From assembly GCA_037447655.1 (NCBI GenBank), contig JBBHKE010001073.1:1-64000 (forward strand): 64,000 bases of DNA. The letters are read 5' to 3'. Numbering within the stretch: the stretch's first letter is position 1; each line of letters opens with the position of its first letter. The stretch comes from Zygnema cylindricum (taxonomy: Eukaryota; Streptophyta; Zygnematophyceae; Zygnematales; Zygnemataceae). Shown here piece by piece: positions 14,426 to 59,013 of the stretch. Position numbers and translations under genes: made by a program. The notes under the pieces are model-generated. The model was not told the origin of the DNA. It worked only from the letters and a program-made list of their open reading frames with translations, and did no database searches.

Positions 14426-16687
14426 GATGACTAGATTTTCGTCCATGAAAAAAAAAGCATACATCAATATTCTTAGCACCCACTGGAGTTTGTTCCTAAG
14501 GATACAACGCCACAATGTATCCAATGTAAAGAAAAAAGAAGGTTACAGATATAAAAGACTGAAAAAAATGTTATGAAAGGTTTTTTGTCAACATTTGGTA
14601 GGTTTACGCTAAATTTCAGTGAATCCTAGAGGCATTAAGAGAAGGTCTGGATCAGCTTTGAATACTATTTATTCTGTTTTAGGCTAGACTCGAACAATCT
14701 CACTAAAATTTTACACTTCTGTTATAAGTTTGGTCTTACAAATAATCCTGAATACAACCTCACATAATCTTTTATTTTTTTCAACTATTAAACTGAAAAC
14801 CTCTAAAAATCCAAATTCTGAATAACCATGAGGTAGGGTGTTTACCCGCTTTTATACTATTCTCATTCAAATAGGTTACTATATCTATTATTATTATTTA
14901 TTATTTATTTTATTTGCTAAGTCATTGTCCAACATTGAATCTGATTTAAGTTCTTTAGCATCAAAGTACATTGGAAATCTTTCAAAATCCGAGTGCCTGT
15001 TTTTCAGTTTTACAAATACAATACTTTGGCCACTGAATAACTTTCTTGCGCAATTCATTAAATATGGGCGAAGTCTATTTCGTTATTTTATGATGGAAAG
15101 TCCAAAGTCCATAACAAAATGTTTAGAGGGAAACATAATATAAGATAACATAACATAACACACAACATGTAACATTTAACAAGTTACATGTTTTTATAAC
15201 ATATATATGTTTTAGTGTTTTAGTGTTTTATTGTTTTTATGTTTTTCTCTATTAAGTGCTTTGATGATACAAAATCTTATGGTTCTAATAGTTCATTCAC
15301 TAATAAGACTATTAGTGTAAATAACCCTGATTCAGGAGCCGGTTTTTTTAATCCGGAGAGAGGTTTTGCCCTCTGAAGGGTTCAAAAAAAGTCAACCAGA
15401 TTATTTGGAAATTGGATTATAATAAATAGCACTAATTATACCCCATGCTAATAATTCCTTTACTACAATAACACAAATGTGAAATCTTGGCTAAGAATTT
15501 CTTTCAATAAATTAATAAATTAAATTGGCTAATAGATTAGAATTGCGTTTTTCACTCTTTTAAATTAAAGATGTAAACATATTTACCTTGTGAGGAGGCA
15601 TTTTAACCCTTTCTAGGGGCAGATTACCCTACATATCATAGTCTAATATTCCATTTTTTTTTATAAATCCGGATATATCTATGTTCGATTTTATCAAATA
15701 TAGTTTGTGGCCAAAATTAAGTTCAGAAAAATATTCTGACAACACTTTTTTAGAATTTGAATTCTAAAATAGGTAAAAGTTGACAGTTCAGCTGATGAGG
15801 ATTTGGAAACTGGATTTTTTCTGCTGATTCCTTATTTACAAAGAAACCAAAAAAAAACAATGACCTTTGACTTTCGAATTTACCCCTTTAGAATGGGGAT
15901 TTGACTTCCAAAAGGATGAATTGGCCAAAATTATTCTCCTAAAACAAGTTAAGAAACGGCCAAACCATGGTTTTTTGTCAACATTTGGTTATATTTGTTC
16001 CATTTTTATCTGATTTGAGGAGTTCATTTCATTTTTAAATTATGAAATTATAATATTATTTTTGAACCCTTTAATTATCATGGGAAATAGACTACACCCA
16101 AAGGACGGTAAAAAGTCAAACGATGTTTTTCGAGGAATGAAAGTATCCATAATTTTTTTACTTTTTCATTTTGTACATTATTTGACTCCCCAAACATCCC
16201 AATACAGAGATAAGTCCATCGCCAAACTCTAGAAAACCCTCAAAAAAAATTGGGTATTTTTGGGTGTAAACATAGATTACTTTGGACAGCAAACTGACTT
16301 TCCTGGGGTCTCAGGTTCTAAAAGACTCAGTAACTTCGATAATTGTTGAGCATACAAGTACAGAAAAAAAATACATACCTCCGGTTATGATTAAAGAAAT
16401 ATTCAAAGCATAAGTCATTTTGATCAGAATCTTTAAGAGAAATTAGCCGAGATAAGAGTGAATCCTACATACTGTATCAGAATTCTAAACTACATCTGCG
16501 TGACATAGTGCCACTACGATAGCGGCCTAGTCACAATTAATAGATGAATAAGTTCTTAAATTACTACCGTTATCATCATGGCCACATATGAAACTTAAAA
16601 TGCTGCAATCTTTTGATTTTCTCAGAGATTTGTTTTTTAAAGGAAAATATTTAGTTCTTGAGCGGGACATTTACCCAACATCTAAAA

Positions 16688-16765
16688 GGCAGCCCCCAGA
16701 CTTGAACTGGGACAAAGAAAAATTTCCTCACATCCAATGACCGCATTGCAATATTTTCAGGCACT
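16688..16765 (-). repeat. tRNA-like fragment with T-arm
   Basis: On the minus strand CCCAGTTCAAGTCTGGG forms a T-arm (5-bp stem, 7-nt loop TTCAAGT), followed by GGCTGCC and TTTT. The 5' acceptor strand that should pair with GGCTGCC is missing. It is therefore a tRNA-derived fragment or SINE head, not a working tRNA. The duplicate lies at 25138-25215. Confidence 0.45.
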
Positions 16766-17647
16766 CAATATCCCCCGAAAATACTACCAATTTTTTTAGT
16801 TTTTAAGGTCCCATTACCACATGAATCGCTTTTAGAATTAGTAACATTCATTCAGTGCCAATATCTTTTTGTCTTCTAGGCAAAAACAGAGTTCACAGTG
16901 ATTGTTATATCTTGTTACTAACCGTTCAAAAACGGCATTCAAATTGTGGAATTAACGCACTGCCATACCTTATAATACTAAATGATACTACTTACTTCAC
17001 TAAGTTCAGTACTTCGAGGTGTGTACCTTCCCAAAGGAAGTTGACTGCAACTGCAAAAACTCTCTGCCAAGCATATACGTACATATTTTTCCCATGATAT
17101 TTAACAATATCTTGTCTTCAAAACTATTTCGCTATGATAGTACTTGAAATAGACGATTGATGTACAATATACTAAGATTATATGAATGCGGACAACGCCT
17201 ATGATAAATCAGTAGATTTCAAGTACAGAGATATTCACCTAACCCACAATTTAGATCCAAGAGATAACTAGAACCAGTTTTGATGCTTTAGAGTTATCAA
17301 TTGGCTGTGACGATCCTACAATATACCTAATCATTAGGATATAAAGGAAAATCAAGGAAATATGAAACTAGTGTTACCTAACCTGTTGTGGTCCATCTTG
17401 CAAACTGACCATACCTCTTCACTCCATTTAATTATTTTGCCCAAATGTCCAAAAAGTGTTACTTTGTTCAGAGTGTCAATTCGCCGTGTGTAACGGTCTG
17501 TTCTCTATGTTTCCCTCTGCAAAACTAATATTTAACGATAATATCGGATTTCCATAAATCACTCGTTTTGAAAATTAGGCGGTACAACCCTCACGTAAGG
17601 ATAATATGCAGTAGAAGATTCTTCACTAAGATGATGATGACAGATTC

Positions 17648-20600
17648 ATGTGAAATCTCGGGCTCAACATCCATTGGAGCTTGTCCATGTCAATCTATGT
17701 AGACAAATTCAGTTGGAGAGCCTTAGAGAAAATTGATATATTATGGTCATCGTAGATGATTATTCGAGATTTTCGTGGGTGCGATTATTGAAGAGGAAAT
17801 TGGATGCTCTTGAAACTTTTATTGAGTGGCACGCATTTGCCAAGAGACAATGCGAACGGAAATTGAAAGCCATTCGTTCGGATAATGGAGGCGAATTTCT
17901 CGCATTTGAGAGGTATTGTAAGGAGAAAGGAATTACCCAACAATTCACTTCATCTTATTTTCTAGAATCGAATGGAGTAGCCGAAAGGAAGAACAGAACT
18001 TTACAAGAAATGGTGAGGGCAATGGTGCATTCCCCGCTCTAAGTATCTCATTATGGGGAGATGCCATCCTGAAGGCCAATTACATTTGTAATCAGAAACT
18101 TACTTCGGTTTCCGCTGATAAAACACCATTCGAATTACTTTATGGGCGAAAACTGGCTCTCCATCATCTTCGAATTTGGGGATGTCGTGCTACGGTGTAT
18201 GTGGATCAAGCGAAAACGAAAGGAAAATTTGCGGCGAGGAGTTGGCCCGAAATTTTTGTGCGCTATAGTACAAAAGGAAATCTCTATCGTGTATTTGATC
18301 CGGCTCGTCGTATTGTGGAAGAATCCCGAAATGTCAATTTTCATGAAAACTTAAAATTGGTTATTGATAAATTGGCGGAATTGAAGAAGAATCTTGATTT
18401 TTATGAGGTAGACGATGTTGCCAATTTCCCAGAAATTGAGGATTAGGATTCAGACGAGGAACCGGAATCCATTGTCAATATCAAAAAGGGGAAATCAAAT
18501 GTTGAATCGCGTTCGCAGAAATTGGACATTGACATAGATGTTCAGAGTAATGCAAGCCGAAATTCGAAAATGTCGACGGAAAGTCAAAGATCTTCAAGCT
18601 CAAAATTGAGTTTACCAAATGTGGACAAGCTTCTTAGACAGAGTACTCAAGAGAATAGAGGAAAGAAACCAAATCGGCTTTCTTATGACAAAATTGGCGG
18701 AGAGAATTCAAATTCCCATTATTGTGTCTCCGATGCGAAGGAGACGGAATTCCTTTGATAACAATTAATAAGCGAGAATTTGGCCGACGATTTGCAATCA
18801 TACGTGGAGGCAAAAAACTCGTGTGATTGGGAAACGAAGTGGAAGTCGGCATGGGAGAAGGAGTATAAGTCAATTGTGGAAAATCAGACATTTGAAGAAG
18901 TGAAATTAGCAGAAGGAAAGAAAGCGATTGAGGCGAAATGGGTCTTCAAAACTAAAATTGGTGCATCGGGTGAAGTAGTAAAATATAAGGCGAGAGTTAT
19001 ATGCAAAGGATTTCAGCAAAGAGAGGGGGTAGATTACACGGAGACATATATTCCCGTTGTGAAATTCGACTCTCTAAGAATGATTATGGAGATTGCCGCT
19101 GCAAAGAAGAAACACGTTCATCAAATGGATGTGGAGACCGCATTTTTTAATGAAGACTTAGAAGAAGAGGTCTATATGAAGGTGCTTGAATGAGTGACGT
19201 CACGGGAAGGCACGGTATGGCGTCTTCGCAAATCGCTCTACGGATTGAAGCAGGCGCCTCGCACTTGGTATCTGCGCCTACACAGTCTTTTTGGACTTTG
19301 GTTTCACCCGTACGATTTTGGATTCTGGAGTGTACGTGAAAGGAAAATGAATGGATCAAATTATAATTTCAGTGTACGTCGTTGATTTGTTGATGACGTC
19401 AAATAGTTTGGAACGTATATGCGAATTATATATAGAATAGTTTGAAAGCGTACCTGCGTCAACATTTCAAAGTGACAAATCTTGCCGAAGTAAAATATAT
19501 TTTGGGGATCGAAGTGATTCGTAATACGAACGGAGATATTAAGTTAAGTCCGGCGCAATATTGTGAGGAGGTATTAGCGCGATTTTCTATACTGGACGCA
19601 AAACCAATTTCGACGCATATGGACGCGAAAAGTCAATTGCGAAGGTTCGAGGAGGAAGCGACCGCAAACGTAGCATACCGCGAAGCGATTGGGAGTTTAA
19701 TGTACCTAAGTGTTGGTACGCGGTCCGATATTTGGCGGCCGTTTCAATTGTAAGTCAATATTGTCAAGCGCCAAAGAGATCGCATTGGGAGGCCGTCAAA
19801 CGTATATTTCGATACTTGGCGGGTACTATCAATATCGGTCTTGTATTCAAATCTAAAAGCGAATCATTGGAGTGCGTCGGATATTGCGACCCTAATTGGG
19901 GCGGAGATTTTGATTCGGGATAATCTACGTCCGAATACGCGTTCGTGTTTGGTGGGGCGGCGATCTTGTGGAGTTCGCGTCTCCAACCAACCGTGGCAAT
20001 AAGTTCAACGGAGGCCGAGTATATGGCGGCGTGCCACACAAGCAAGGCGTCAATATAGATAAGGCGAACATGGATTTCGATTGGATGTTTAAAAATTTTC
20101 ACGGATAGGATGAGTTCAATGGCCTTTGTGAAAAATCCCGTATTTCATAAGCGCACTAAACATATACGGATCTAATGGCATTTCGTACGAGATTTGGTAG
20201 CGGCTAAAGAAGTGGAATTTTTGTATGTATCAACACTTGAGGAGGCTGCCGACATGCTTACTAAGGCGACGACGTTTGATGTACTTTTAAGAGGAAGACC
20301 TAAATTAGGGTTGTTGTGAGAGAGACGATTCTTCAATGAAAAGGGGGAATGCTACGATTCATTGAAAGAATCGTACGCGGGAAGAATCGGTTCGATTTTG
20401 AAAAACTGTACTTTTTATAATGTATCGAAAGTTACTCTGGCGTACGTTTCAAAAGAGTTCAATATGTTTTGCGAAATGTATTTGTCGTGTCGTTTCGCGT
20501 CTAGAATTGTCGTACGTCTAATTTAGTACAATAGCATTTAAGATTTGTCTAGTAGTTTTGTTTTGACTAGTCATTTTGCAATGTTTGAGTCCTTAGTGAA

Positions 20601-20934
20601 ATTTAGAGTGTTCTAGCTTAATCTGCGGACAGGGTGGCAGATTTCTAGAGGTTTCTTGGCGGCGCACGCTTACATGTGCAGCGCCAAGGCTAGTGTGTTA
20701 TTCAAGGGAAACCATGGACTTGTGTAAAATCAATCAACGATCAATTGGAGGATTACATGGAGGAATAGAAGAGATAAAAGAGAAATTGTAATTTCAGTTT
20801 TTGTATAAATGTGAGAATTTTCGGATATGTCTCATCAATGTTGATTTAATGTTTTATAATCTGAATGCTTCTGCTGCTTTAATTGTTTGTTAAGTGAGCT
20901 CTAAGTTTATTATCGATCCTTTCATGTCGATCAT
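17648..20934 (+). mobile_element. 5'-truncated copy of copia-1 (copia-2)
   Basis: The integrase core (17743-18042) has VDDYSRF, SDNGGEF and ESNGVAERKNRT, carrying the D, D and E positions. The integrase C-terminus (18195-18446), linker (18522-18758), RT N-terminus (18780-19193, HQMDVETAFFNEDLEEEVYMK), rest of RT (19194-19420) and RNase H (19442-20060) follow, separated by stops or frame changes. The 3' LTR closes the element. There is no gag, protease or 5' LTR because the duplication started inside integrase. Confidence 0.9.
20350..20934 (+). repeat. 3' LTR of copia-2
   Basis: 585 bp, TG..CA ends, preceded by the same AAAAGGGGGAA polypurine tract. It is much closer to 11184-11751 than to the 5' LTR at 871, as expected for a segmental copy. 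Confidence 0.9.
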
Positions 20935-23900
20935 TAATTGATAATTCTACCTCCGTGATTTGTTAGGAGAACCTTTTCTTCTGATTGTTTGAAATAGACA
21001 ATTTAATTGGCTGCAGAAGCTGCAGAAGAAATCCTCTATTGACTTGAATAGGCGATCCATAATTTCACAATCTGCCGCCTGTCTAAGCACTTAGTTAGTA
21101 TTTTATACTTTTGATTATCTATTAACACTAACAAATTATTAAAGCTACAAACGAGGGAAGAGTAGCCATCAGAAAATTACGTACAAGTAAAACGGAAAGG
21201 CAAATCCCTCATCTCTCCCCCCTCTCTTCTTCTCCCTCTCCATCTACCTCCCCCTCTCTCTCCTCTTCCTTCCTCAAATGGCAGCATCCCTCCACTGATT
21301 CCATGATCGATCCCATCTATCCGCAACATTCTCGTGTCCTCGATCCGGCTTTGATCTCCAACTGATCCGATCCCATAGATCATCGTCGCTTTCTCTCTCC
21401 TTCCTGATCTGCCTTCCCCTTCCTCTCCTCACTCCTCTCTCCTCTCCTCTCCTCTTCCTCTTCTCTCCCCCTCCCTTTCTCTTCCCCCTCTCCCTAGAGG
21501 GGAGGAACCTGAGAGACAGAAGAGGGAGAGAGAAGGAGGGAGAGGAAGGGAGAGGAGAGAGGGAGAGGGAGACGGAGAGGGAGAAGAAGAGGGGGAGGGA
21601 GAGGGAAAGGGAGGACTGATGTGCATTCGTATCCGCTCATCCCATTGGAATATTGATAAATATAGCATAGATATCTGGATTAGTACTGATTTGTTGCAAC
21701 GTGTAATTTGGTAAGAAAAGATGCAACACACATCTCTAGTCTCCATAACAATTTTTTAATAGTCTAAGCTATATTTGTGTTACATGACAATCTGCAATAA
21801 GTTTCGTGTTATATCACAGTATTGCACATTCTTTCGTACTTCATCATAGGAATCTACATTCACAAATCAATGCTTTATGATAAGATATGGTGTGAAATAA
21901 ACAATGTGTGGTAGAAAAGCATTGTGGTGCACTTTTTAGCAAAATCTACATAAAAAACTTTTATTATTGACATTTAAGACAACGACTTTACAATACTACT
22001 AAGCATATAGGTGTATTATAATGGTTGGTTCTCTATGTAGTTCCTTTCTCATGGATTTCCTTTTTAGTCTATGCTTGTATTATAATGGTTGGTTCTCTAT
22101 GTAGTTCCTTTCTCATGGATTTCCTTTTTAGTCTATGCTTTTGTCTTGCACTTACAGTGCTCGATCTACTTTTCGGAAAGGGTTTGCATATCCAACCCCC
22201 CCCTATCTTGTACCACACTCACTTTAGGTTTTTAGAGGTACACAAGAAAAACAAAAATAATCATGACAAATTTCTTAAGTAGATAGAAACTTACAAACAA
22301 ATACAATTTCACCAGTTGGCCGGTTTGAGTGAAGAGTAGTCGTGTGCACGATAAACTTGTATTTAGAACAAAAAATAGAAAGAACGGTGAAGTAGAAGGC
22401 TGGTAGTGTCCCTTGAGTGAGCAAAGAGGGAGAGTGAAGAGAAAAAATGGGAAAGAGGGGGAGTGGGGAAGAGAGGGAGTGGGAAAGGGGGGAAAGGGGA
22501 AGATGGGGAACAGGAGGGGAAGAGGAGATGATGGAAGAGTGCGGAAAATGAGGGGGAATATGAGGGAAAAAGAATGGGAAATAAGAGAGGGGACAAGGAA
22601 AAGAAGGAAAGGAGGATATGAGAACAAAACAAAGAGGAGGAGGTATTTGGGGAAGGTGGGAAAAGAGAGATAGAGGGGTGACATGGAGGAAAATGGAGGT
22701 AAAGAAATAGGAGGAGAGCGAGAGAGGTGGGAGGAGAGTGGGGGATGGAGAAAAGGGAAAGGAGAGATGGGAAAGAGAGTGGGGGATGGAGAGAGGGGAC
22801 GAAGGGGAAGGAGAGAGGGGGAAGGCAAGGAGAAGAGCGGGAGAGGGAAGAAGAGGGGAAAGGCGGACTAGATTTTCGTCCATGAAAAAAAAAGCATACA
22901 TCAATATTCTTAGCACCCACTGGAGTTTATTCCTAAGGATACAACGCCACAATGTATCCAATGTAAAGAAAAAAGAAGGTTACATATATAAAAGACTGAA
23001 AAAAATGTTATGAAAGGTACACGTTTTTGTCAACATTTGGTAGGTTTACGCTAAATTTCAGTGAATCCTAGAGGCATTTAGAGAAGGTCAGGATCAGCTT
23101 TGAATACTATTTATTCTGTTTTAGGCTAGACTCAAACAATCTCACTAAAATTTTACACTTTTCTGTTATAAGTTTGGTCTTACAAATAATCCTGAATACA
23201 ACCTCAATCTTTTATTTTTTTCAACTATTAAACTGAAAACCTCTAAAAATCCGAATTCTGAATAACCATGAGGTAGGGTGTTTACCCGCTTTTATACCAT
23301 TCTCATTCAAATAGGTTACTATAGTCTATTATTATTATTTATTTTATTTGCTAAGTCATTGTCCAACATTGAATCTGATTTAAGTTCTTTAGCATCAAAG
23401 TACATTGGAAATCTTTCAAAATCCGAGTGCCTGTTTTTCAGTTTTACAAATACAATACTTTGGCCACTGAATAACTTTCTTGCGCAATTCATTAAATATG
23501 GGCGAAGTCTATTTCGTTATTTTATGATGGAAAGTCCAAAGTCCATAACAAAATGTTTAGAGGGAAACATAATATAAGATAACATAACATAACACACAAC
23601 ATGTAACATCTAACAAGTTACATGTTTTTATAACATATATATGTTTTTGTGTTTTTATGTTTTTATGTTTTTGTCTATTAAGTGCTTTGATGATACAAAA
23701 TCTAATGGTTCTGATAGTTCATCATCATTATCCTTGTCCACACTAATAAGACTATTAGTGTAAATAACCCTGATTCAGGAGCCGGTTTTTTTAACCCGGA
23801 GAGAGGTTTTGCCCTCTGAAGGGTTCAAAAAAAGTCAACCAGATTATTTGGAAATTGGATTATAATAAATAGCACTAATTATACTCCATGCTAATAATTC

Positions 23901-26089
23901 CTTTACTACAATAACTCAAATATGAAATTTTGGCTAAGAATTTCTTTCAATAAATTAATAAATTAAATTGGCTAATAGATTAGAATTGCGTTTTTCACTC
24001 TTTTAAATTAAAGATGTAAACATATTTACCTTGTGAGGAGGCATTTTAACCCTTTCTAGGGGCAGATTACCCTACATATCATAGTCTAATATTCCATTTT
24101 TTTTTATAAATCCGGATATATCTATGTTCGATTTTATCAAATATAGTTTGTGGCCAAAATTAAGTTCAGAAAAATATTCTGACAACACTTTTTTAGAATT
24201 TGAATTCTAAAATAGGTAAAAGTTGACAGTTCAGCTGATGAGGATTTGGAAACTGGATTTTTTCTGCTGATTCCTTATTTACAAAGAAACCAAAAAAAAA
24301 CAATGACCTTTGACTTTCGAATTTACCCCTTTAGAATGGGGATTTGACTTCCAAAAGGATGAATTGGCCAAAATTATTCTCCTAAAACAAGTTAAGAAAC
24401 GGCCAAACCATGGTTTTTTGTCAACATTTGGTTATATTTGTTCCATTTTTATCTGATTTGAGGAGTTCATTTCATTTTTAAATTATGAAATTATAATATT
24501 ATTTTTGAACCCTTTAATTATCATGGGAAATAGACTACACCCAAAGGACGGTAAAAAGTCAAACGATGTTTTTCGAGGAATGAAAGTATCCATAATTTTT
24601 TTACTTTTTCATTTTGTACATTATTTGACTCCCCAAACATCCCAATACAGAGATAAGTCCATCGCCTAACTCTAGAAAACCCTAAAAAAATTGGGTATTT
24701 TTGGGTGTAAACATAGATTACTTTGGACAGCAAACTGACTTTCCTGGGGTCTCAGGTTCTAAAAGACTACAGTAACTTCGATAATTGTGGAGCACACAAG
24801 TACAGAAAAAAAATATGTACCTCCGGTTATTATTAAAGGAATAGTCAAAGCATATGTCATTTTGATCAGAATCTTTTAGAGAAATTAGCCGAGATAAGAG
24901 TGAATCCTACATACTGTATGAGAATTCTAACCTACATCTGTGTGACATAGTGCCTCTACAATAGCGGCCTAGTAGTCACAATTAATAGATGGATAAGTTC
25001 TTAAATTACTACCATTATCATCATGGCCACATGTGAAAACTTAAAATACTGCAATCTTTTGATTTTCTCAGAAAGCATTTTTTTTTCTTTAAAGGGAAAT
25101 GTTTAGTTCTTGAGCGGGATATTTATCCAACATCTAAAAGGCAGCCCCCAGATTTGAACTGGGACAAAGAAAATTTTCCTCACATCCAATGACCGCATTG
25201 CAATATTTTCAGGCACTCAATATCCCCCGAAAAAATCACCAAGATTTTTAGTTTTTAAGGTCCCATTGCCACATGAGTCGCTTTTAGCATTAGTAACATT
25301 CATTCAGTGCCAATGTATTTTTGTCTTCTACTCAAAAATAGAATTCATAGTGATTGTTGTATCTTGTTACTAACAGTTCAAAAACGGCATTCAAATTGTA
25401 GAATTAACGCACTACCATACCTTATAATACTAAATGATACTACTTACTTCACTAAGTTCAGTACTTCGAGGTGTGTACCTTCCCAAAGGAAGTTGACTGC
25501 AACTGCAAAGACTCTCTGCCAATCATATACGTCCATATTTCTCTCATGATATTTAACAATATCTTGTCTTCAAAATTATTTCGCTATGAGAGTACTTGAA
25601 ATAGGCGATTGATTAACAATATATTAAGATTATGTGAATGCGGACAACGCCTATGATAAATCAGTAGATTTCAAGTACAGATAGATATTCACCTAACCCA
25701 CAATTCGGATCCAAGAGATAACTAGAACCAGTATTTATGCTTTAGAGTTATCAATTGGTTGTGACGATCCTAATATATACCTAATCATTAGGGTATAAAG
25801 GAAAATCAAGGAAATATTAAACTAGTTTAAACTAACCTCTTGTGTTCCAACTTGCAGTCTGACCATACCTCTTCACTCCAATAAACTATTTCGCCATATG
25901 TCCGAAGTGTTACTTTGTTCAGAGTGTCAATTCACCGTGTGTAACAGCCTGTTTTCTATGTTTCCCTCTGCAAAGCTAATATTTAACGATAAATTTCCAT
26001 AAATCACTCGTTTTGAAAATTAGGCAGTAGAACCCTCACGTCAGGATAATATGCAGTAGAAGATTCTTCACTAAGATGATGATGACAGA
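20935..26089. other. Gene-free flank, part of duplication unit 2
   Basis: Duplicate of 11752-17645. It contains shortened CT/GA tracts (21205-21615 and 22418-22868), the 64-bp duplication at 22013 and the tRNA-like fragment near 25140. About 150 bp at 21270-21420 (from TCAAATGGCAGCATCC) has no counterpart in unit 1. No gene is recognised. Confidence 0.6.
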
Positions 26090-27095
26090 GTCAGGAGATG
26101 ACTAGTTTGACATCGAAAAAATATTGTCAAATTTCCTGCACGTGTTATTTCTGTATGAAGAATCATTACAGAATGATCCTATTCGCGACAAGAATTCAAT
26201 GATGCTATCATTTCTAAACAAACGACAACTTTGGTATATATAGTAGGGTCAGTCACTGTAATATTGTTCTTCACGTACAACCAGAACCAGTTCATCACAT
26301 GATGAACAGATCTGTAGATAATCATGCAGTATTGCAACGGAGGAGAACCTCGAGAAATCTCTCTATATTCAGATCCACGCGGGCAGATATATACAAGCAG
26401 GAAATTTAGGTTTCTCTAGAGTACATTAGGGTTAACCCTAAAATCTCATCACTTCAGTAGAAAACCAGTTGTAGTTCTAAGTTTATAAATCTCGACAATG
26501 GTTCCCCTATCGATATTTAGGCTGTTGTACAAATAAATTCAAGTCATCTGTCATAACTTCATTGAGACAAAGTTCCGGTGATTAAGTTATTTGGAAATAA
26601 TGATATCCAAACGAAATTCCCTACTGAAATAAGGTAGGTTTCTGGAATTTACCACAACACAATTGGAGAGGACAAAGAGCGAGATTTTTCAGATTTTTTT
26701 TAAGGGAAAATTTTCACAAATACGATTATTCTATTTTTATTAACGTAAGGAATCAATCTCTAAAAAAGTTCAACATTCATGGGTCACTTATCACAGATAG
26801 TTTTCTCATCAGCAGTGAAAAATAACACAATAAAAATATCTTGTTCGGTCGATTGTAGTCTCATCCATGTACAGCACCAATCAATTATAACGCGGCTATA
26901 AAATATCCCATCACATCAACAACTTTCATTCATAATAAAAGTGGAAATAGATCCAAGAAGTTCTCCATTTATCTTAAATGTAATGCACATGGGAATATCT
27001 GTCTAAAAATACCCACACTAATGAAATACTTTCACTTACTGAAAAAGGACGATAAACAGAGTCAAAAAATCTAGTCGAACCTGTACACTTTTGCA
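26090..27095. other. No gene recognised; 3' side of THI4
   Basis: AT-rich DNA between the end of the segmental duplication and the outermost TPP aptamer. The distal 3' UTR and poly(A) sites of THI4 may reach into it, but I cannot place them. Confidence 0.5.
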
Positions 27096-27096
27096 C

Positions 27097-27205
27097 TGAC
27101 AACTTCCCTACGCAGGTATTATCCTGGTCAGGTAATGAGGGTATTGTCTCAGCTTTTCCTGATAAAGCAAATAAGCTATACCAGGAAAGGCACCCCTAGT
27201 GTCAA
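27097..27205 (-). promoter_or_regulatory. TPP riboswitch aptamer 3 downstream of THI4
   Basis: Read on the minus strand, the conserved TPP aptamer blocks occur in order: CTAGGGGTGCC, CTGAGA (pyrimidine-binding loop), TACCCTCATTACCTGA, GGATAATACC and GCGTAGGGAA. Flanking TTGAC and GTTGTCA give a P1 stem. The variable P3 arm is CTTTCCTGGTATAGC... folded on AGGAAAAG. It is the outermost of three and lies only about 37 nt from aptamer 2, with which it shares the CCCTCATTACCTGACCAGGATAAT block, so the two look like a recent tandem duplication. Confidence 0.93.
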
Positions 27206-27242
27206 CGCTAATCCGCTTTCCCCATCCCGGTTAGAATCTCTC

Positions 27243-27356
27243 ATAACACTTCCCTTCGCAGGCATTATCCTGGTCAGGTAATGAGGGTATTATCTCAGCC
27301 TATCCTGACAGTAGTGGCATTTACCACTAAGCCAGAACAAGCACCCCTAGTGCTAT
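27243..27356 (-). promoter_or_regulatory. TPP riboswitch aptamer 2 downstream of THI4
   Basis: Minus-strand blocks: ATAGCACTAGGGGTGC, GGCTGAGA, TACCCTCATTACCTGA, GGATAATGCC, GCGAAGGGAAGTGTTAT. P1 forms between ATAGCAC and GTGTTAT (one G-U). All residues known to contact TPP in this class (CUGAGA; ACCUGA..GGAUAAU; GCG.AGGGA) are present. It lies about 285 nt beyond aptamer 1 and just before aptamer 3. Confidence 0.93.
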
Positions 27357-27611
27357 AAGGACAACATATCTACAGCCTACTCTGAATCCATTTGAAAGCA
27401 AGGGTTCATATTGCACAAAGCAGAAGACCATCGAGAATTGAACAAATAAATAGGCCGGAAAACTAGTATCAAAACAAATAAAACATATTAATACCAGATA
27501 AAAATTAAATGTCAAAAACCAAGGCAAAAACTACACATTTCAGCAAGCAAAGGTAAGCATCAAATACCACCTTAACAGGCTGATACCAGAAACGAACCGC
27601 GTCCATCCAAC

Positions 27612-27831
27612 CTGGAGACAAAGCAACATAGCACAAAACTAGGCACACTCCCTACGCAGGAATTATCCTGATCAGGTTACAGGGTATAATCTCAGCCTGG
27701 CATACGCACAGCTCACAAAGAGCTGTGCTTGTGTAAACCAGGCACCCCTGGTGCCATAGGGTCAGAACAAATATCAAAAATCAGACATATTATTTCAAAT
27801 ACAAAATTGCCAAATCTGGGCACCCTTTTAC
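27612..27831 (-). promoter_or_regulatory. Candidate TPP-controlled 3'-UTR intron of THI4
   Basis: Donor CTCAG|GTAAAA (intron starts at 27831) and acceptor TTTGTCTCCAG| (intron ends at 27612) enclose aptamer 1, which ends 30 nt before the acceptor. The donor hexamer TCAGGT (27835-27830) is complementary to the conserved ACCTGA of the aptamer (27677-27672), so the free aptamer could mask the donor and TPP binding could release it. The splice sites are read by eye; no transcript was seen. Confidence 0.5.
27642..27755 (-). promoter_or_regulatory. TPP riboswitch aptamer 1 downstream of THI4
   Basis: Minus-strand blocks: GGCACCAGGGGTGCC, GGCTGAGA, TACCCTGTAACCTGATCAGG, ATAATTCC, GCGTAGGGAG, closing GTGCC. 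P1 is GGCAC/GTGCC, the same as in the THIC aptamer. P3 carries an extra perfect hairpin (GCACAGCTC/GAGCTGTGC). It starts about 200 nt after the THI4 stop codon and sits near the 3' end of a candidate 3'-UTR intron (27831-27612), the same layout as in THIC. Confidence 0.95.
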
Positions 27832-27953
27832 CTGAGATGTCTATCGTCTTTAATTGCTGGACCCTAATGAAACACCCAGCAAGGTAAGACTACCAGACAT
27901 TCAAGCAACAAAGCTATTCTAACTAACTTTTATCTACACTGATATCAGCATTT

Positions 27954-30394
<2,441 letters not shown>

Positions 30395-30889
30395 GTAAGC
30401 CTTTCTCACACTCATAATGAAGGTTTTTAATAGAGAATTGCTGTTACGTTTCTCACACCCATAATGAATGTTTTTAATAGAGAGTTGTTGTTACGGAAGC
30501 CATTAGGACTTGTTTGAATAAGAGCTGAAGGGTTGTTTCCTATCGTTGAATCAAACATACCATTGGTTTGTTGGATTTTCATCACTCTGGAAAGTTTTTT
30601 TTCTTTACATATTTCTATTTGGTAGTCTTGGATTCATAATGTATTGCAAGGTTGCTCCGAGTAATTAGGTGATGAGTACATAGAGTATGATTGTTGTGAA
30701 CTAGCTTTAAAAGCTTCTATAAACTCTACATTCTTGAACTGTCTAGTTTGACAATCCTGTTGATGTCTGTGGAGCTTTCTCACTTTCTTTAAACTGCTAG
30801 CCGCTGGATATCTACTGACTGATTACCTATAGCTCTTGTGACTTGATTTCTCACTGATTTCTCATATTATTCTTTATTGTGCTACGCAG
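30395..30889 (+). other. Putative 5'-UTR intron of THIC with 48-bp duplication
   Basis: Donor TCAT|GTAAGC at 30395 and acceptor GCTACGCAG at 30889 define a likely leader intron; the start codon is 39 nt past the acceptor. Inside, TTTCTCACACTCATAATGAA... is repeated in tandem (30402-30449 and 30450-30497). Confidence 0.55.
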
Positions 30890-30927
30890 ATTCATTGTAT
30901 CCATTGTGTTCTCGCTTGCCATCCAAT

Positions 30928-35830
<4,903 letters not shown>

Positions 35831-36349: not shown

Positions 36350-36693
36350 GTATTCTGGTCTTCGAAGTTATGTGCACTAAACCAGCTTGATACAAACACG
36401 ACGATACAAATGCGGATTTCTAGAGTCCTATTCAGGCTGTCGTGGTCTCTCTCTTGTCTTCTTCTACTTTCTTTTACTTTTTCCTCCTTTCTCTATCTCC
36501 TTTCTCCACCTTTCTCTTTTCTTGGTATTGTACTGACAAAGGTCGGCACCAGGGGTGCTTGTTGCATATCGGCGCTTAGCGTTGCATATGTGGCAGGCTG
36601 AGAGAGTCCCTTAGAACCTGACCAGGTTAATACCTGCGGAGGGAGAGTGCCACGTTTTGTACTTTTTTGGTGTCTGTGGTGTTTTGTTTGCAG
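36350..36693 (+). promoter_or_regulatory. Riboswitch-controlled 3'-UTR intron of THIC
   Basis: Donor TTG|GTATTC at 36350 and acceptor TTTTGTTTGCAG ending at 36693 enclose the TPP aptamer, which ends 42 nt before the acceptor. GGTATTCTGGTC at the donor (36349-36360) can pair with GACCAG and AATACC of the aptamer (36620-36634) over 12 bp with a 3-nt bulge. This is the arrangement known from plant THIC: without TPP the aptamer strand hides the donor; with TPP the donor is freed, the intron is spliced, the poly(A) site is lost and expression falls. GTAATA at 36320 is a weaker alternative donor. Confidence 0.75.
36545..36651 (+). promoter_or_regulatory. TPP riboswitch aptamer in THIC 3' UTR
   Basis: Blocks in order: GGCACCAGGGGTGC, GGCTGAGA, GTCCCTTAGAACCTGA, GGTTAATACC, GCGGAGGGAGA, with P1 formed by GGCAC (36545-36549) and GTGCC (36647-36651). 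P3 is extended by a TTGCATATCGGCGC/GCGTTGCATATG-type arm. All conserved TPP contacts are present. This is the standard position for land-plant THIC. Confidence 0.97.
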
Positions 36694-51366: not shown

Positions 51367-51501
51367 GGTCTCACAAAACCCTATTTTTTTTTTATTATCC
51401 TTCTTTTTGTACCTAATCTTCCCCTAACCTCACTCGACCCACCCTCTTCAACCGTCGCCTACTTTCCCTTTCTTTCCTCTCCCAATTCTGTCTTCCCCTC
51501 C

Positions 51502-52532
51502 TGAAACTCTGAGACCTCCATAGGACCTCAAATTAGCCAGCTCACACGAAGCCTCTAGGATAACCCTGACCCTTTTGTGTTTCAGCAAGAATAACTGCCA
51601 CCCTGGCAGATAAAAACTCTGACCACCTTCACCCCTGTGAAGGCAAGACTCCCCTGAGTCTATAGCAAAAAGAATCTCTGAATTTGCTCCCCTGAGCAGT
51701 AAGTTATGAAGAGTCAAAGTTGACCTTTTGTACAGGAGCTCTCCGGGAGAGATGGTCTAATCTATCAAAAGTTTCTAAGTCCTATCTCTCTCTAAAGCTC
51801 TATCTACTGAAGTACGGCACCAATCATAAGAGTGTATCGTACATAAAGGTACATGTGCCGATGTACTTTGTGTACGGCCATTGTACAACATGGCCAACAA
51901 GTCGACACATGTCATTTTTGGATTCGTTCCCGGAATCCCCAGAGATGCCGAAATCCAATGTGATTGTGCCACGTGGCAATTGATGTGACGTCGACCATAA
52001 ACCGCCGAAAACTCATTCCGCGATCTCGGCATGCTTCGTGGCCGTCCGATGAAGTCGGATTACAATCGTGGCCGTCATAAATACTTGGGCACTATTTGTT
52101 TCGCCTTCGAAACAAAGTGCGCGGTATCCGTTTCGGATGTTCCGTGGCCGTACATTACAAATGTATCTATGTCTAAATATTCCGTTGAATGAAAATAGGC
52201 TACGTGTTAACATCTGAATAATTACGAAACCCTATATGTCCAACCATGATGCCAGAATAACTGGCTAAGGCTACCGGCTATGTTGACGGACGGTAGGTAC
52301 TAGGTTCAAATCCAGGGTCCGTCAATTTCTATTTTGGTAAATCTACCAAAATCTACAACCCGTAACTCTATCTCTAATCAGCATAGCAGCCATGGCTCTA
52401 GCTCCCTCTTCAACCTTCAGTGACTACGACAAGTGTGGGAGCTGAAGAGAGAAGTTAGAGGCAAACTGCCTCGGCTTCTTTTCTGCATTTTGCAAAACCT
52501 AGAAAATACTTAAATAATCTTTTATTTCTACA
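51502..52532 (-). repeat. 3' LTR of copia-3
   Basis: TG..CA ends. On the plus strand it carries tRNA-like A and B boxes (TGGCTAAGGCTACC at 52262 and GGTTCAAATCC at 52303), antisense to the element. Confidence 0.92.
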
Positions 52533-52543
52533 CTCCCCTTATT
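52533..52543 (-). other. Polypurine tract of copia-3
   Basis: On the minus strand AATAAGGGGAG abuts the TG of the 3' LTR. Confidence 0.8.
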
Positions 52544-52545
52544 TT

Positions 52546-54662
52546 CTAGTCACTCTTTAATTTAAGACCACACTTCTCCCGGCAAAAAAATAGTTTAGGG
52601 GAAGGAACAGGTTTGGTCATCATATCAGCTACCATTTCACTATCTGGTTTATACTCCAAACTGATTACCTTGTTTTCTACTTTCTCCCTAACAAAGCTAA
52701 GCCTAATGTCTATGTGTTTGGCTTTAAAGTGATGTTTAGGATTGGCAGAAATAGCAATGGCAGCCTGATTATCACAAAACACTTTTTGGACACCACTCTT
52801 AAGATGACCAAGCTCACCAAGCAAAGACTTGACCCACATTAATTCTTTTACAGCAGAGCAAGAAGCCATGCACTCAGCCTCCATGGTGGACTGAGCAATG
52901 ACCTTTTGTTGCTTGATGCTCTAGCAGCAAGCCCCATCACCCACATACAATACATATCCAGATGTGCATCTCCTCATAGGAGCATCCCCATAGCTGGCAT
53001 CACTCCAAGTGGTGATGTCAGTATTGTTACCACCCAAATGCAACCATAGATTCTTAGTCCCTATGAGATATCTAAGGACTCTTTTAGCTGCCTCCCAATC
53101 TTTCTTAGTGGGAGCATTCAGACTCCTTCTTAGTACTCCTACAGCTGCGGCTATGTCCGGACGAGTACAATTCATAAAATATATTAGGGTGCCCACTACT
53201 TGTCTATAAGGGATGGTCTACATAAATATTTTCTCTTCCGGGCCTACCTCATCATCTAAGATTATAACTCCCTCTTCCTCACTCCCCTCACTTCCCTTCT
53301 TTAATTCCATAGGAGTGGTACAACTATTAGCCTTGTCCATTTGGAATTTTTCTAACATGTTTCCAATGGCCTCCTTTTGAGTTAATCTTATTATCTTTCT
53401 ATCTTTGTCTCTTTCTACCTGAATTCCCAAAATATACCTTGCTTCTCCCATACCCTTCATCTCAAATCTTCCTTTTAAATCATTTTTCAACTTATTTATT
53501 TTATCCATAGATTTACTTAAAACAAGCAAATCATCTACATAAATTGCAATACAAATAATTCTTTCCTCATCTTCAAACAAATAAATTGAGTGATCTGAGC
53601 TGATCCGAATATATCCCAAACCTGTAAGAAACTCATCGAGCTTCTTGTTCCATTGCCGGGGCGCCTGTTTCAGCCCATACAAAGATTTGATCAATCGGCA
53701 TACCTTGCTTTCCTCCCCTTGCTCCACAAATCCTTCGGGCTGTCGCATAAAAATTTCCTCTTCCAACTCTCCATGTAAGAAGGTCGTCTCGATGTCCATC
53801 TGATGCACTTCCATGTCTTTTGCTGCCGCCATACTGAGAAGTATTTGAACCGAAGGAAACCTGACGACCGGGGCAAAAGTCTCCTCGTAGTCAATTCCCT
53901 TTTTCTGGGTAAATCCCTTCGCCACTAAGCGAGCCTTGTAGCGCTCAATGGTGTTATCCGGGTTGAGTTTCAGCTTAAATACCCACCTACACCCAATTGG
54001 CTTCCTGTCAGGAGGACAATCCGCCAATTCCAATGTATCGGCAGCCATAATTGAGGCCATCTCCTCGTTAATGGCTGTCTTCCACTGGTTTCTTTCAGGA
54101 CAAGTCATTGCCTCATTATAAGTTTGAGGTTCATCGGGGTGAGACAGTTTGGTTACCTTATTGTTAACTTGTCTCTCTTGCAGTCTTTTGCTGCTTCTTC
54201 TTCCTCCCTCAAACTTGGTTGCCAGAATAGATTGTTCTCTTGGATTCTTCCGAACAGTTTCTACTTCTCCCCTATCCCTTGATTCCGGGTCGATTACCAC
54301 CACGTCTTCCGCTTCGGTTAGAGTTACTACTAGGGGTTCCACATTTGGGTCCTTCTCGATCTGATCCGTACCTGCAAGATCATCATCTTCTTATATCCTG
54401 GATAGTTAGGAAACTCAAAGTCATCAGAATTTTCTGACTCAAATTTGATTTTGATTGTCTTTGTATGCTTAAAAGGATCTATAGATTTTCCTTCATCCAT
54501 TACCACTAGATGCTTCACTAGGATAATATCCTCTCTTTTGAGATCGTAAACTCTATATCCTTTTACATCTTCATCATATCCTAGTAGATATCCTGGTTTT
54601 CCTTTTGGGTCTAACTTCCAGTTTGACCGATCTGTGTCTAAACTGAACACTTGACTACCCAA
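52546..54662 (-). pseudogene. copia-3 RT and RNase H region
   Basis: After the integrase tail (54662-54330, GSQVFSLDTDRSNWKLDPKG), a frame change near 54390 leads to RT at 54342-53218. This has WVFKLKLNPDNTIERYKARL, HQMDIETTFLHGELEEEIFM, KSLYGLKQAPRQWN and the catalytic YVDDLLVL. A TAG near 53218 separates it from RNase H (53196-52921, TWSDASYGDAPMRR), and another stop near 52921 precedes the last part (52884-52546, MEAECMASCSAVKELMWV, ADMMTKPV). The motifs are intact apart from these breaks, which suggests recent loss of function. Confidence 0.92.
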
Positions 54663-54686
54663 AACCTTTAAGTGTGAAACATCTGG

Positions 54687-56546
54687 TTATCGGCCTGTCC
54701 ATCTCTCATCGGGTGTTTGGCCTTTTACTGTTGAAGTAAGAACTCTATTTTTGAGATAATTTGCACAGTTCATTGCTTCAGCCCAAAACTTCTTTCCTAT
54801 CTTCTTATCAGACAACATACTCCTAGCACTATCACTCAGTGTTCTATTTAATCTTTCGGCTACACCATTCTGCTCAGGATTTTCAGGAACTGTCTTTTGG
54901 TGTTGCACTCCATCTTTTCTCAGAAAATCCTCAAACTGGTTAGAGGTATACTCTCCACCATTGTCACTCATTACTCTCTTGATTGAGGTTTCATGGAGTT
55001 TTTCACTCCATGCTTTATATTGTTTAAAACATTCCTGAGCCTCTGACTTATTTTTCAAAAAATACACCCTGGAATAGCGAGACCAATCATCAGTGATAGT
55101 CATCATAAATCTCTTCCCCCTGGGTGATGGCACTCTGGCCGGCCCCCATATATCTGTGTGAACTAAATCTAGAATCTTTTCTCCCTTATAGGTGGCAGTT
55201 TTTGGGAAGGGTAACGTGTGTGCTTTACCTTGAGCACATCCACTACAATCACTTAGATTCTCAACTTCACCGAACTGAATCCCTTCCACTACTCCCATCT
55301 TTTTCATCTCTCTTAATTTATCTAGATTCACATGCCCAAGCCTCTTATGCCACAACATTATATCATGAATACCAGCATAGTAAAGTTTCTTCTTTTCATT
55401 GCTTAAAATCAGCCTAAACATCCCTTGGCTACCTTTTTCAGCAGTGAAATAAACTTCCTTCTCAAAACTAGCAGTAAAGACTCCTTTCCTAGTGCTAGTA
55501 TCAAAACCCTTATCATCTAATACAGACGTAGAGATGAGGTTTTTGTTCAGCTCTGGAATAAACAACACATCGGAGAATGTAACTATAGATGTCTTTCCTT
55601 CTACTAACACTTTTAGATCTACCGATCCTACAAGAGTAGGAGTGACTATCCTCCCATCCCCGTACTCTATCTCTACGGTGGGAATCTTTCTTATCTTAGT
55701 GAGCAGGTGTTTATCTTTACACATGTGCATGGATGCACCTGAATCTACAATCCATCTTGTTTCACCTTTCAATCCACCGAAAGCACATTTCTGATTTCGT
55801 GGAATTTCGACCTCACTTTTCGCTTCCAACTCCTCATCCAATAGGAGTTCATCGTCCTCGTCCTCGGATTCCGCCTCATGTACCTGTGTCACAAGGGCCT
55901 TTTTCTTTCCTCTCGGGGGTCCACCAGTCTGCCCCTCCTTTAACCGCAGCTCGGTTAACTTAGTGCATTCAGCCATATAGTGCCCGGGTTTCTTACAAAA
56001 ATGGCACAATCCCTTGGGAGTCCTTGGTCCGAACTCCTCGGTCTGATTTTTCTGCACCTCCCCTCGATAATTTCCAACCTGTTTTCTGGAATCATTGTTT
56101 CTCCAATCAGTCCCGGCTGCCAAGGCTTGCCCACTCTTTCCTCCCCTTCGGATCTCAATTGTATTCTCCCGAACGAGAATCATCCCTACCACTGAATTCC
56201 AAATCCACCTTGAGTCCGCCAAGTCCTGCACACGGTTTACTATGTTCTCGAACTCCTCAGGTAACTTCATCAATAAACAGTTAACCTTTTCCTTTTCACT
56301 AAATACTTTTCCAGCACTTTCTAGTTCCATGAAAAGTGTAGCAAGCTCATTGCAAAAATCCAACATCTTCCCCCCTTTGTATACATACTCCTTAATTTTC
56401 TGATCAGCCAACTGTTGTTGCTGAATCGTACCACTTCGGTACATCTCTATGAGAGCCATCCAAAGATCGGATGCTCTCTTTACCTGCAAATGGGGAGATG
56501 CAAGCCCTTGAGTAAGATGGCCGAGGATGAAGTGCTTAGCTGCCAT
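54687..56546 (-). pseudogene. copia-3 gag C-terminus, protease and integrase
   Basis: A 619-residue open frame with, in order: the gag capsid end (MAAKHFILGHLTQGLASPHL), the zinc knuckle CHFCKKPGHYMAEC, the protease active site WIVDSGASMHMC, and integrase (WHKRLGHVNLDKL, CSGCAQGK for the HHCC zinc site; HTDIWGP, SDNGGEY and PEQNGVAERLNRT for D, D and E). It ends at a TAA after TPDERWTGR; the same frame continues past it as PDVSHLKVLGSQVF, so the stop is a mutation. Confidence 0.92.
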
Positions 56547-56878
56547 ATTGTTGAAGTCCCACGTATCGATATCATTCTCCTCGTTCCCGGAATAGGTGAC
56601 ATGAATGCCGAACCGGTTGCTATTGGTGTGATTATCTCCTTCTCCTTTCCTTTGTCCACCACCTCTCCTTCCTTTGTCTCCTCCGTTGAAGATGAATCTG
56701 CATCTCTAGTGAATCTGCCTCCTGTAAACCCTGTAGGTATCCCAAGACTGGATGGACGCCTCACCCGTCCCCTCACTATTCCCCAAAACCGTTTCTCACA
56801 TAGAGCTCCTGTCCTCATACTTTCCCAGTATATGAAGCCAACTCCATTGAATATGGGCACCCTAGATGGTGGGCCCAT
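56480..56878 (-). pseudogene. copia-3 gag N-terminus
   Basis: It reads MGPPSRVPIFNGVGFIYWES and FWGIVRGRV, the typical start of copia gag. The likely start ATG (56878-56876) lies inside the primer-binding site; an upstream in-frame Met at 56902 would lie in the LTR. The frame must shift near 56600 to enter the next open frame (WDFNNMAAKHF). Confidence 0.75.
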
Positions 56879-56882
56879 AACC
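56868..56882 (-). other. Half-tRNA(iMet) primer-binding site of copia-3
   Basis: The minus strand reads GGTTATGGGCCCACC directly after the LTR's terminal CA. The plus strand, GGTGGGCCCATAACC, equals the anticodon arm of plant initiator tRNA-Met with anticodon CAT. This matches primer sites used by elements primed with a cleaved initiator tRNA (as in Drosophila copia), not the common site for the tRNA 3' end. Confidence 0.85.
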
Positions 56883-57914
56883 TGAAACTCTGAGACCTCC
56901 ATAGGACCTCAAAGTAGGCAGCTCACACGAAGCCTCTAGGATAATCCTGACCCCTTTGTGTTTCAGCAAAAATAACTGCCACCCTGGCAGACAAAAACTC
57001 TGATCACCTTCACCCTTGTGAAGGCAAGACTCTCTTGAGTCTATAGCAAAAAGAATCTCTGAATTTGCTCCCCTTAGCAGTAAGTTATGAAGAGTCAAAG
57101 TTGACCTTTTGTACAGGAGCTCTCCGGGAGAGATGGTCTAATCTATCAAAAGTTTCTAAGTCCTATCTCTCTCTAAAGCTCTATCTACTGAAGTACGGCA
57201 CCAATCATAAGAGTGTATCGTACATAAAGGTACATGTGCCGATGTACTTTGTGTACGGCCATTGTACAACATGGCCAACAAGTCGACACATGTTATTTTT
57301 GGATTCGTTCCCGGAATCCCCAGAGATGTCGAAATCCAATGTGATTGTGCCACGTGGCAATTGATGTGACGTCGACCATAAACCGTCGAAAACTCATTCC
57401 GCGATCTTGGCATGCTTCGTGGCCCTCCGATGAAGTCAGATTACAATCGTGGCCGTCATAAATACTTGCGCACTATTTGTTTCGCCTTCGAAACAAAGTG
57501 CGCGGTATCCGTTTCGGATGTTCCGTGGCCGTACATTACAACTGTATCTATGTCTAAATATTCCGTTGAATGAAAATAGGCTACGTGTTAACATCTGAAT
57601 AATTGCGAAACCCTATATGTCCAACCATGATGCCAGAATAACTGGCTAAGGCTACCGGCTATGTTGACGGACGGTAGGTACTAGGTTCAAATCCAGGGTA
57701 CGTCAATTTCTATTTTGGTAAATCTACCAAAATCTACAACCCGTAACTCTATCTCTAATCAGCATAGGCAGCCATGGCTCTAGCTCCCTCTTCAACCTTC
57801 AGTGACTACGACAAGTGTGGGAGCTGAAGAGAGAAGTTAGAGGCAGACTGCCTCGGCTTCTTTTCTACATTTTGCAAAACCTAGAAAATACTAAAATAAC
57901 CTTTTATTTCTACA
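56883..57914 (-). repeat. 5' LTR of copia-3
   Basis: 1032 bp, TG..CA ends, collinear with 51502-52532. The same plus-strand tRNA-like boxes are present at about 57643 and 57684. Confidence 0.92.
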
Positions 57915-57919
57915 CCTCC

Positions 57920-59013
57920 CTCTCCTCACTCAACAACTTCTCTTCCCTAAAACCCCCACATTTTTCCTCCTCGACGCCCTCATCAAAAAGTATTATTTTT
58001 ATTTTTATTTTTTTACATTTTTTCTCTACCTTTTCCCATACCTCCCTTCCCTCACCCTCTTCTACCGTCGCCTCTATCTTTCCCCCGTCTACACCATTTA
58101 CCGTTTTTCCACCCTCCTTCTCTAATGGAATATTTTCTCCCATAATCATCTCACTTTCTTCCGCCTCCCCTCTTATCACATCTACCAATTCACCCCTTTC
58201 CTCCTTTCCCTCCTCCGGTAAAATCCCCTCCTATGCTACCTCATCCAAATATGTTTCTTCCTTTCCTCTCCCAACCGGTGTCAATCCTCCCACCTCTACC
58301 TCTTCTCTCACCTCCCTTTCATGCCCCCTTCCCTCCTCCGGTAAAATCCTCTTCTTTGCTACCTCATCCAAATTTGTCCCTTCCCTTCCTCCCCCAACCG
58401 GTGTCAATCCTTCCACCTCTACCTCTTCTCTCACCTCCATTTCATGCTCCCTCCCCTCCGGCGGCTCCCTTCCCTCCTCCGGTAAAATCCCCTCCTTTGC
58501 TACCTCATCCAAATTTGTCCCTTCCCTTCTTCCCCCAACCGATGTCTATCCTTCCACCTCTACCTCTTCTCTCACCTCCATTTTATGCTCCCTCCCCTCC
58601 GGCGGCTCCCTTCCCTCCTCTGGTAAAATCCCCTCCTTTGCAACCTCATCCAAATTTGTCCCTTCCCTTCCTCCCCCAATCGGTGTCAATCCTTCCACCT
58701 CTACCTCTTTTCTCACCTCCCTTTCATGATCCCTTCCCTCCTCCGGTAAAATCCCCTCCTTTGCTACCTCATCCAAATTTGTCCCTTCCCTTCCTCCCCC
58801 AACCGGTGTCAATCCTTCCACCTCTACCTCTTCTCTCACCTCCATTTCATGCTCCCTCCCCTCCGGCGGCTCCCTTCCCTCCTCCGGTAAAATCCCCTCC
58901 TTTGCTACCTCATCCAAATTTGTCCCTTCCCTTCCTCCCCCAACCGGTGTCAATCCTTCCACCTCTACCTCTTCTCTCACCTCCCTTTCATGCTCCCTCC
59001 CCTCCGGCGGCAC
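57920..59013 (-). pseudogene. Acidic repeat ORF (5' part), interrupted by copia-3
   Basis: The protein function is unknown. The minus strand encodes tandem repeats of 47 or 41 residues of the type EVREEVEVEGLTPVGGG, REGTNLDEVAKEGILPEEGRE (unit DNA 141 or 123 bp; unit positions 58277, 58400, 58541, 58682, 58805 and 58946). Both unit lengths are multiples of 3, which keeps the frame. Point stops occur in the unit at 58541 and near 58231. Downstream of the repeats is a Lys/Glu-rich part that runs into copia-3 and resumes past 51501 as far as about 51466. The plus strand is also open here, but the neighbouring exons are on the minus strand. Confidence 0.5.

Follow-up and report, generated by a model that had tools for sequence, protein, structure and literature searches.

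The occurrence of three apparent TPP aptamers behind a single THI4 gene in the zygnematophycean alga Zygnema cylindricum raises the question of whether all three are genuine, how they arose, and how they might act on one transcript. To our knowledge, known eukaryotic riboswitches are nearly all single, and plants and algae usually carry one. We addressed this question in a window of 64,000 nucleotides (assembly GCA_037447655.1, contig JBBHKE010001073.1, positions 1 to 64,000), by which we mean the whole stretch of DNA analysed; its relevant features are collected in Table 1. THI4 and the neighbouring THIC in this window (contig C797) are referred to as THI4-A and THIC-A, and their paralogues on a second contig (C857) as THI4-B and THIC-B.

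Table 1 Features of the THI4-THIC region, in window coordinates
Feature	Position	Strand	Details
Distal poly(A)-like motifs AATAAA and AATAAT	26725..26741	-	about 1.2 kb past the stop; hexamer scan
Candidate acceptor downstream of aptamer 3, TTTATCGTCCTTTTTCAG	27039..27040	-	6.6 bits, fourth of 81 AGs
TPP aptamer 3	27088..27207	-	RF00059 59.0 bits, E 9.7e-10; z -3.06
TPP aptamer 2	27234..27358	-	RF00059 65.7 bits, E 2.2e-11; z -4.23
Candidate acceptor downstream of aptamer 1, TTTGTCTCCAG	27612..27613	-	9.9 bits, first of 81 AGs in 26500-27953
TPP aptamer 1	27631..27759	-	RF00059 62.9 bits, E 1.1e-10; z -4.85
Proximal poly(A)-like motifs TTTGTA and AATAAT	27789..27805	-	between donor and aptamer 1; hexamer scan
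Candidate 5' splice site / anti-aptamer strand TCAG/GTAAAAGGGTGCCC	27818..27835	-	G of GT at 27831; 8.4 bits
Strong hairpin just past THI4 stop	27820..27925	-	-37.1 kcal/mol, z -4.29; stability matched by none of 200 shuffles
THI4 (THI1) coding region	27954..29378	-	exons 29378-28761, 28558-28259, 28121-27954; 361 aa, catalytic-type Cys226
Shared upstream region THI4/THIC	29379..30927	.	1549 bp; six exact 14-22 bp blocks kept in the C857 paralogue
THIC coding region	30928..35830	+	10 exons, 657 aa; homologues found
TPP aptamer, THIC 3' UTR	36541..36662	+	RF00059 63.2 bits

Three aptamers on one THI4 gene

A cmscan of positions 22000-34000 against all Rfam families returned three minus-strand matches in the THI4 3' region at E up to 1, all of them to the TPP model RF00059. 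The preliminary description of this DNA had read three complete aptamers on the THI4 sense strand, each with its conserved blocks and a closing P1, and had proposed a search of the minus strand with this model as a check; the search bears the description out, as each match, aptamers 2 and 3 included, covers model positions 1-105 of 105 and scores above the gathering score of 54.3 bits. The matches begin 195, 596 and 747 nt past the stop codon for aptamers 1, 2 and 3, respectively. In the alignment of the six aptamers found in the genome, the blocks CTGAGA, ACCTGA, TAA and CCTGCG.AGGGA are unchanged throughout, and the minimum free energy (MFE) structure of every THI4-A aptamer has the canonical TPP shape with P1 closed. 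The identity of these elements and their number are firm, and all three presumably bind TPP.

None of 200 shuffles was as stable as the native sequence for any of the three. The other aptamers of the genome gave weaker z-scores (THIC-A -1.97, THI4-B 0.11, THIC-B -0.17), so that a TPP aptamer can evidently do without a fold that stands out from shuffles, yet those of THI4-A do stand out. The fold of aptamer 3 is less certain: its P1 has a one-base bulge, its MFE structure makes up about 1% of the ensemble, and its centroid has a shorter P1. Aptamers 2 and 3 nevertheless each form ten P1 pairs in their own MFE structures, with differing outer strands. In windows over the THI4-A 3' region, low z-scores fell on the three aptamers and on the hairpin after the stop codon and, less strongly, on a stretch near 27003 (-2.5).

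A lax scan of 25500-27960 gave no fourth TPP match at E up to 10, its other three matches being sub-threshold snoRNA families; a fourth aptamer inside the hairpin at 27820-27925 was rejected on the same scan. Across the whole window, the single TPP match beyond these three is that of the THIC 3' UTR. All three aptamers lie on the same strand in the same 3' region, and no other minus-strand gene was recognised downstream by eye. The idea that they are the leader of a downstream gene is unsupported, given that no such gene was seen by eye among the 53 open reading frames overlapping 15000-27900 (a stop-to-stop list with a minimum of 60 aa, which short exons could escape).

When spliced and translated, the THI4 reading frame is intact and includes Cys226, which sits in TQSCMDPN, a stretch identical in the PDB match 1RP0 (E 2.4e-162), which we take to be the Arabidopsis THI1 enzyme. 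The residue noted in the preliminary description is thereby confirmed. According to the accessible text of PMC3665906, yeast THI4 is known to act by suicide chemistry at this cysteine and the same is anticipated of plant THI1; the Zygnema enzyme may likewise be single-turnover.

THI4 and THIC are divergent and arranged head-to-head. The six blocks kept in their shared upstream region span 29572-30066 and include, in minus-strand reading, GCTGACTCAAAGTCGGTG (29855-29872) and TTTCCGGCTTACGTAGTCCGCA (29607-29628); a literature search found no paper on a THIC/THI1 bidirectional promoter. Going by names, with DNA left aside, the two genes of Mesotaenium have consecutive numbers (2531/2530) on one scaffold, ME000161, and those of Adiantum nelumboides have consecutive locus tags (L7F22_036110/036109); the Spirogloea matches fall on separate scaffolds, s17 and s285. 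The linkage may be old in streptophytes. Elsewhere in the window, open frames at 17737-20002 (+) resemble, by eye, a copia-type retrotransposon polyprotein, and 51495-57923 is a repeat with several copies on C857 at 67-87% identity, probably a transposable element.

Both phylogenies place the genes nearest to zygnematophycean algae, and not to bryophytes or ferns, with moderate support, the forks cited here falling below the tree programme's own mark for strong support. In the THI4 tree, Mesotaenium and three further sequences share a group (87/89) with the window gene and its paralogue, Spirogloea and Closterium join at only 47/31, and Sphagnum, Ceratodon, liverworts and ferns are placed elsewhere. 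The THIC gene groups with Mesotaenium and Closterium at 92/90; a group that includes Spirogloea, but also Chlorokybus and Selaginella, has 88/94. The database rows, 34 for THI4 and 30 for THIC, were chosen by hand from the 120 listed for each, and the THIC tree has no row named as a moss.

The paralogous gene pair and the origin of the aptamers

A search of the genome for THI4, in which 11 of 11 candidates were scored, gave six exon matches in two places, i.e., the locus in the window and a second one on C857. The two proteins are identical at 347 of 361 residues (96%), and the divergence of their genes (dS 0.43, dN 0.017) indicates old, constrained paralogues and not alleles. The entire THI4-THIC pair was duplicated, as C797:27897-36693 is collinear with C857:84258-92991 in eight blocks, and homology between THI4-A and THI4-B stops 57 bases past the THI4 stop codon. 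THI4-B has one aptamer (63.8 bits), with no second TPP match at E up to 10. A genome search with RF00059, in which 49 of 9388 candidates were scored, gave at least six matches, all at these two loci; given the fraction scored, further TPP aptamers may exist in the genome.

The single aptamer of THI4-B agrees with that of THIC-B at 101 of 105 positions, compared with 94 of 104 between the aptamers of THIC-A and THIC-B. A 220-bp tract spanning the aptamer is 91% identical between the THI4-B and THIC-B 3' UTRs (L007:4825-5032 and L008:3826-4045) and looks like a riboswitch module copied between adjoining genes. To judge from these identities, the THI4-B aptamer was apparently copied from THIC-B after the A/B split, by gene conversion or inverted duplication.

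Within the THI4-A array, the closest pair is formed by aptamers 2 and 3, with 61 bp at 92% identity, and aptamer 1 matches aptamer 2 over 56 bp at 86%. Over its aligned length, aptamer 1 is 69-71% identical to the THIC-type aptamers and 57-58% to aptamers 2 and 3. On these sequence grounds aptamers 2 and 3 are the product of a duplication, with aptamer 1 more distant, as the preliminary description had proposed. An assembly artefact is an unlikely source of the second and third aptamers: they are 92% identical over 61 bp, yet have different flanks and P3 arms. When the 41 base pairs of aptamer 2 were mapped onto aptamer 3 through a gapped alignment, 23 were unchanged, 2 had changed on one side and 3 on both, 10 were broken and 3 gapped. 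By inspection, the broken pairs fall mostly in P1, which is put out of register by the one-base bulge, and in the apical loop of P3, where lengths differ. Across the six aptamers, 5 of 26 consensus pairs have changed on both sides in at least one sequence, and the RNAalifold covariation term is only -0.03.

Candidate processing signals and modes of action

We scored splice-like sites with matrices built from 20 donors and 21 acceptors of the THI4 and THIC genes, which are in-sample and comprise few sites. The GT at 27831 is the top-scoring one of the THI4-A 3' UTR and falls within the range of the 20 known donors (5.3-11.6 bits); a GT at 27570 (7.6 bits), in the spacer that separates aptamer 1 from aptamer 2, comes second. 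The leading acceptor, at 27612, is weak compared with the 21 known ones (6.5-19.9 bits), with one lower and one tied, and a further acceptor-like site lies at 26999 (8.1 bits). A scan with a list of poly(A)-like hexamers gave positions 27805, 27794, 26741, 26730 and 26533 (five hexamers, 1.45 kb scanned), which places the three aptamers between a proximal and a distal poly(A)-like cluster, and the motifs at 27805 and 27794 fall inside the candidate intron 27831-27612.

In aptamers 2 and 3, the P2'/P4 strand ACCCT..TTACCTGA is complementary to the donor strand TCAGGTAAAAGGGT; the complementarity in aptamer 1 includes mismatches. For every one of the three aptamers, the donor strand ranks first among 172 upstream windows; among 511 18-base windows outside the aptamers, the five best-pairing all cover it, and the 18-mer centred on the donor ranks seventh. 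Pairing energies range from -16 to -20 kcal/mol, with about -17 kcal/mol for the donor-centred 18-mer and -20.3 for the best shifted window, as against -37 kcal/mol for the hairpin in which the donor lies. Shuffles of the donor flanks that keep CAGGT equalled the observed pairing in 2.15% of 2000 cases, and donor strength and pairing were jointly reached in 1 of 1000 dinucleotide shuffles of 27765-27953. One of the 20 known donors out-pairs 27831 with these aptamers (-18.7 vs -17.0 kcal/mol), since CAG/GT is complementary to the core ACCTG. As the THIC and THI4-B 3' UTRs have upstream windows that at best pair with their own aptamers equally well or better (-18 to -22 kcal/mol), pairing energy alone is not distinctive; we established no equivalent donor in these three 3' UTRs (THIC-A, THI4-B and THIC-B).

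When the 924-nt 3' UTR was folded at equilibrium, a thermodynamic TPP switch at the donor was not reproduced: the mean-unpaired value of the donor stayed within 0.13-0.15 whichever of the eight sets of aptamers was bound. The donor lies in the 3' arm of the hairpin at 27820-27925 and is held there in every aptamer state; this hairpin is as distinct from its shuffles as the aptamers are from theirs. With the donor hidden and one of the 20 known donors pairing better, the proposed switch would need co-transcriptional folding, proteins, or another donor.

The explanation towards which we lean is that a three-aptamer riboswitch in an extended 3' UTR lowers THI4 expression at high TPP through splicing in the 3' UTR and selection of the poly(A) site. 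When TPP is scarce, the transcript would end at the proximal poly(A)-like site upstream of aptamer 1 and be stable. At high TPP, bound aptamers would favour removal of an intron, for which 27831-27612 is the best candidate, which would take the proximal poly(A) site and aptamer 1 with it; the resulting transcript would extend to the distal site about 1.2 kb past the stop and be unstable. Aptamers 2 and 3, born by duplication, would then lie in the read-through part, where they might be back-ups acting on the same donor, freed only when all three are occupied, or a second stage with splice sites of their own. Such stacking might, as the preliminary description suggested, steepen or grade the response to TPP. 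TPP-driven processing of this kind is likely but unproven; we infer the splicing, transcript ends, stability and cooperation at THI4-A, and we retain this plant-type model for the order of its parts and not for the folding calculation.

Several other readings of the array deserve consideration. That only aptamer 1 works, served by a donor, poly(A) site and acceptor of its own, while aptamers 2 and 3 are duplication passengers in a relaxed downstream region, seems to us rather unlikely. The best-scoring acceptor does lie shortly past the P1 of aptamer 1, leaving aptamers 2 and 3 beyond it, the lowest score belongs to aptamer 3 with its bulged P1 and dispersed ensemble, and THI4-B manages with one aptamer; however, aptamers 2 and 3 have retained the invariant core and are much more stable than shuffles, and their ten P1 pairs each, retained despite changed letters, are what a drifting copy would be expected to lose.

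The preferred explanation of 3'-UTR processing would include, as a special case and not as an exclusive alternative, two switches in series: aptamer 1 would govern the intron 27831-27612 and aptamers 2 and 3 a second one (donor about 27570, acceptor 27039 or 26999), for a two-step shut-off that needs no direct cooperation. We consider this arrangement unlikely. The donor between aptamers 1 and 2 and the acceptor-like sites downstream of aptamer 3 are suitably placed, and bacterial tandem riboswitches of the TPP class use separate expression platforms, according to the accessible text of PMC2258182; against this, the pairing between that second donor and the aptamers is weak (-9.1 to -10.5 kcal/mol), and both acceptors score low relative to known ones. 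Equally speculative is a multi-input riboswitch in which one donor could be masked by any of three ligand-free aptamers and would open only when all bind TPP, and we regard it as improbable; if true, it would give a single-turnover enzyme a steep AND-type shut-off, evolved in one paralogue, with the other having retained or recovered one aptamer of the THIC type.

Doubtful above all is action after processing, whereby TPP-bound aptamers would stabilise or destabilise the long 3' UTR or block decay enzymes instead of acting via splicing: the donor predicted to be hidden in all states and the high stability of all three aptamers would suit it, but the plant TPP riboswitch that has been studied works through splicing and 3'-end choice (PMC10226581, accessible text), and the splice-like and poly(A)-like motifs are positioned as in the plant THIC scheme.

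Comparison with known TPP riboswitches

The array on THI4-A can be compared with several known systems, of which the plant THIC switch bears most directly on the processing model. Its mechanism has reportedly been the subject of studies by Wachter 2007, Bocobza 2007, and Li and Breaker 2013. In plant THIC the acceptor is located just after the aptamer, and on this general understanding the acceptor-like site past the Zygnema aptamer is a point of likeness. As described in the available portion of PMC10226581, an upstream donor pairs with the THIC aptamer and the poly(A) site lies within the intron; the Zygnema gene has aptamers of this class, likewise placed in the 3' UTR of a thiamine biosynthesis gene, with a candidate donor upstream that could pair with them and, inside the candidate intron, a poly(A)-like site. 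It differs in having three aptamers instead of one, on THI4, and in that the candidate donor lies within a strong local hairpin.

TPP riboswitches of THI1/THI4 are themselves known from early-branching land plants and chlorophyte algae, going by the accessible parts of PMC10226581, PMC3665906 and PMC4260697; these belong to the same gene and, in land plants, occupy the same 3'-UTR position, whereas the Zygnema gene carries three aptamers and belongs to a zygnematophycean host. Bacterial tandem TPP riboswitches likewise place several aptamers, two and rarely three, before one gene (PMC12452182, in the text available), although they are found in 5' leaders with terminator or translation control and the Zygnema array in a eukaryotic 3' UTR. 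The oomycete Saprolegnia offers the nearest eukaryotic count: in the accessible text of PMC5882874, its NMT1 gene carries two TPP aptamers with an unresolved mechanism. Like THI4-A, it is a eukaryotic gene with multiple TPP aptamers that plausibly arose through duplication; it differs in the gene, in the location in 5'-UTR introns, in the number of aptamers and in its distant lineage. The preliminary description's statement that eukaryotic riboswitches are nearly always single therefore stands as a general tendency, with this published exception.

Our search of open-licence papers, in the portions available, found no triple TPP aptamer array in a eukaryote, two in the one oomycete gene being the most. 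The aptamer class and riboswitches on THI4 and THIC were already known; what is new here is the presence of three TPP aptamers on one eukaryotic THI4 gene. With a three-aptamer gene and a one-aptamer paralogue in the same genome, Zygnema provides a natural experiment on how aptamer number relates to metabolic feedback.
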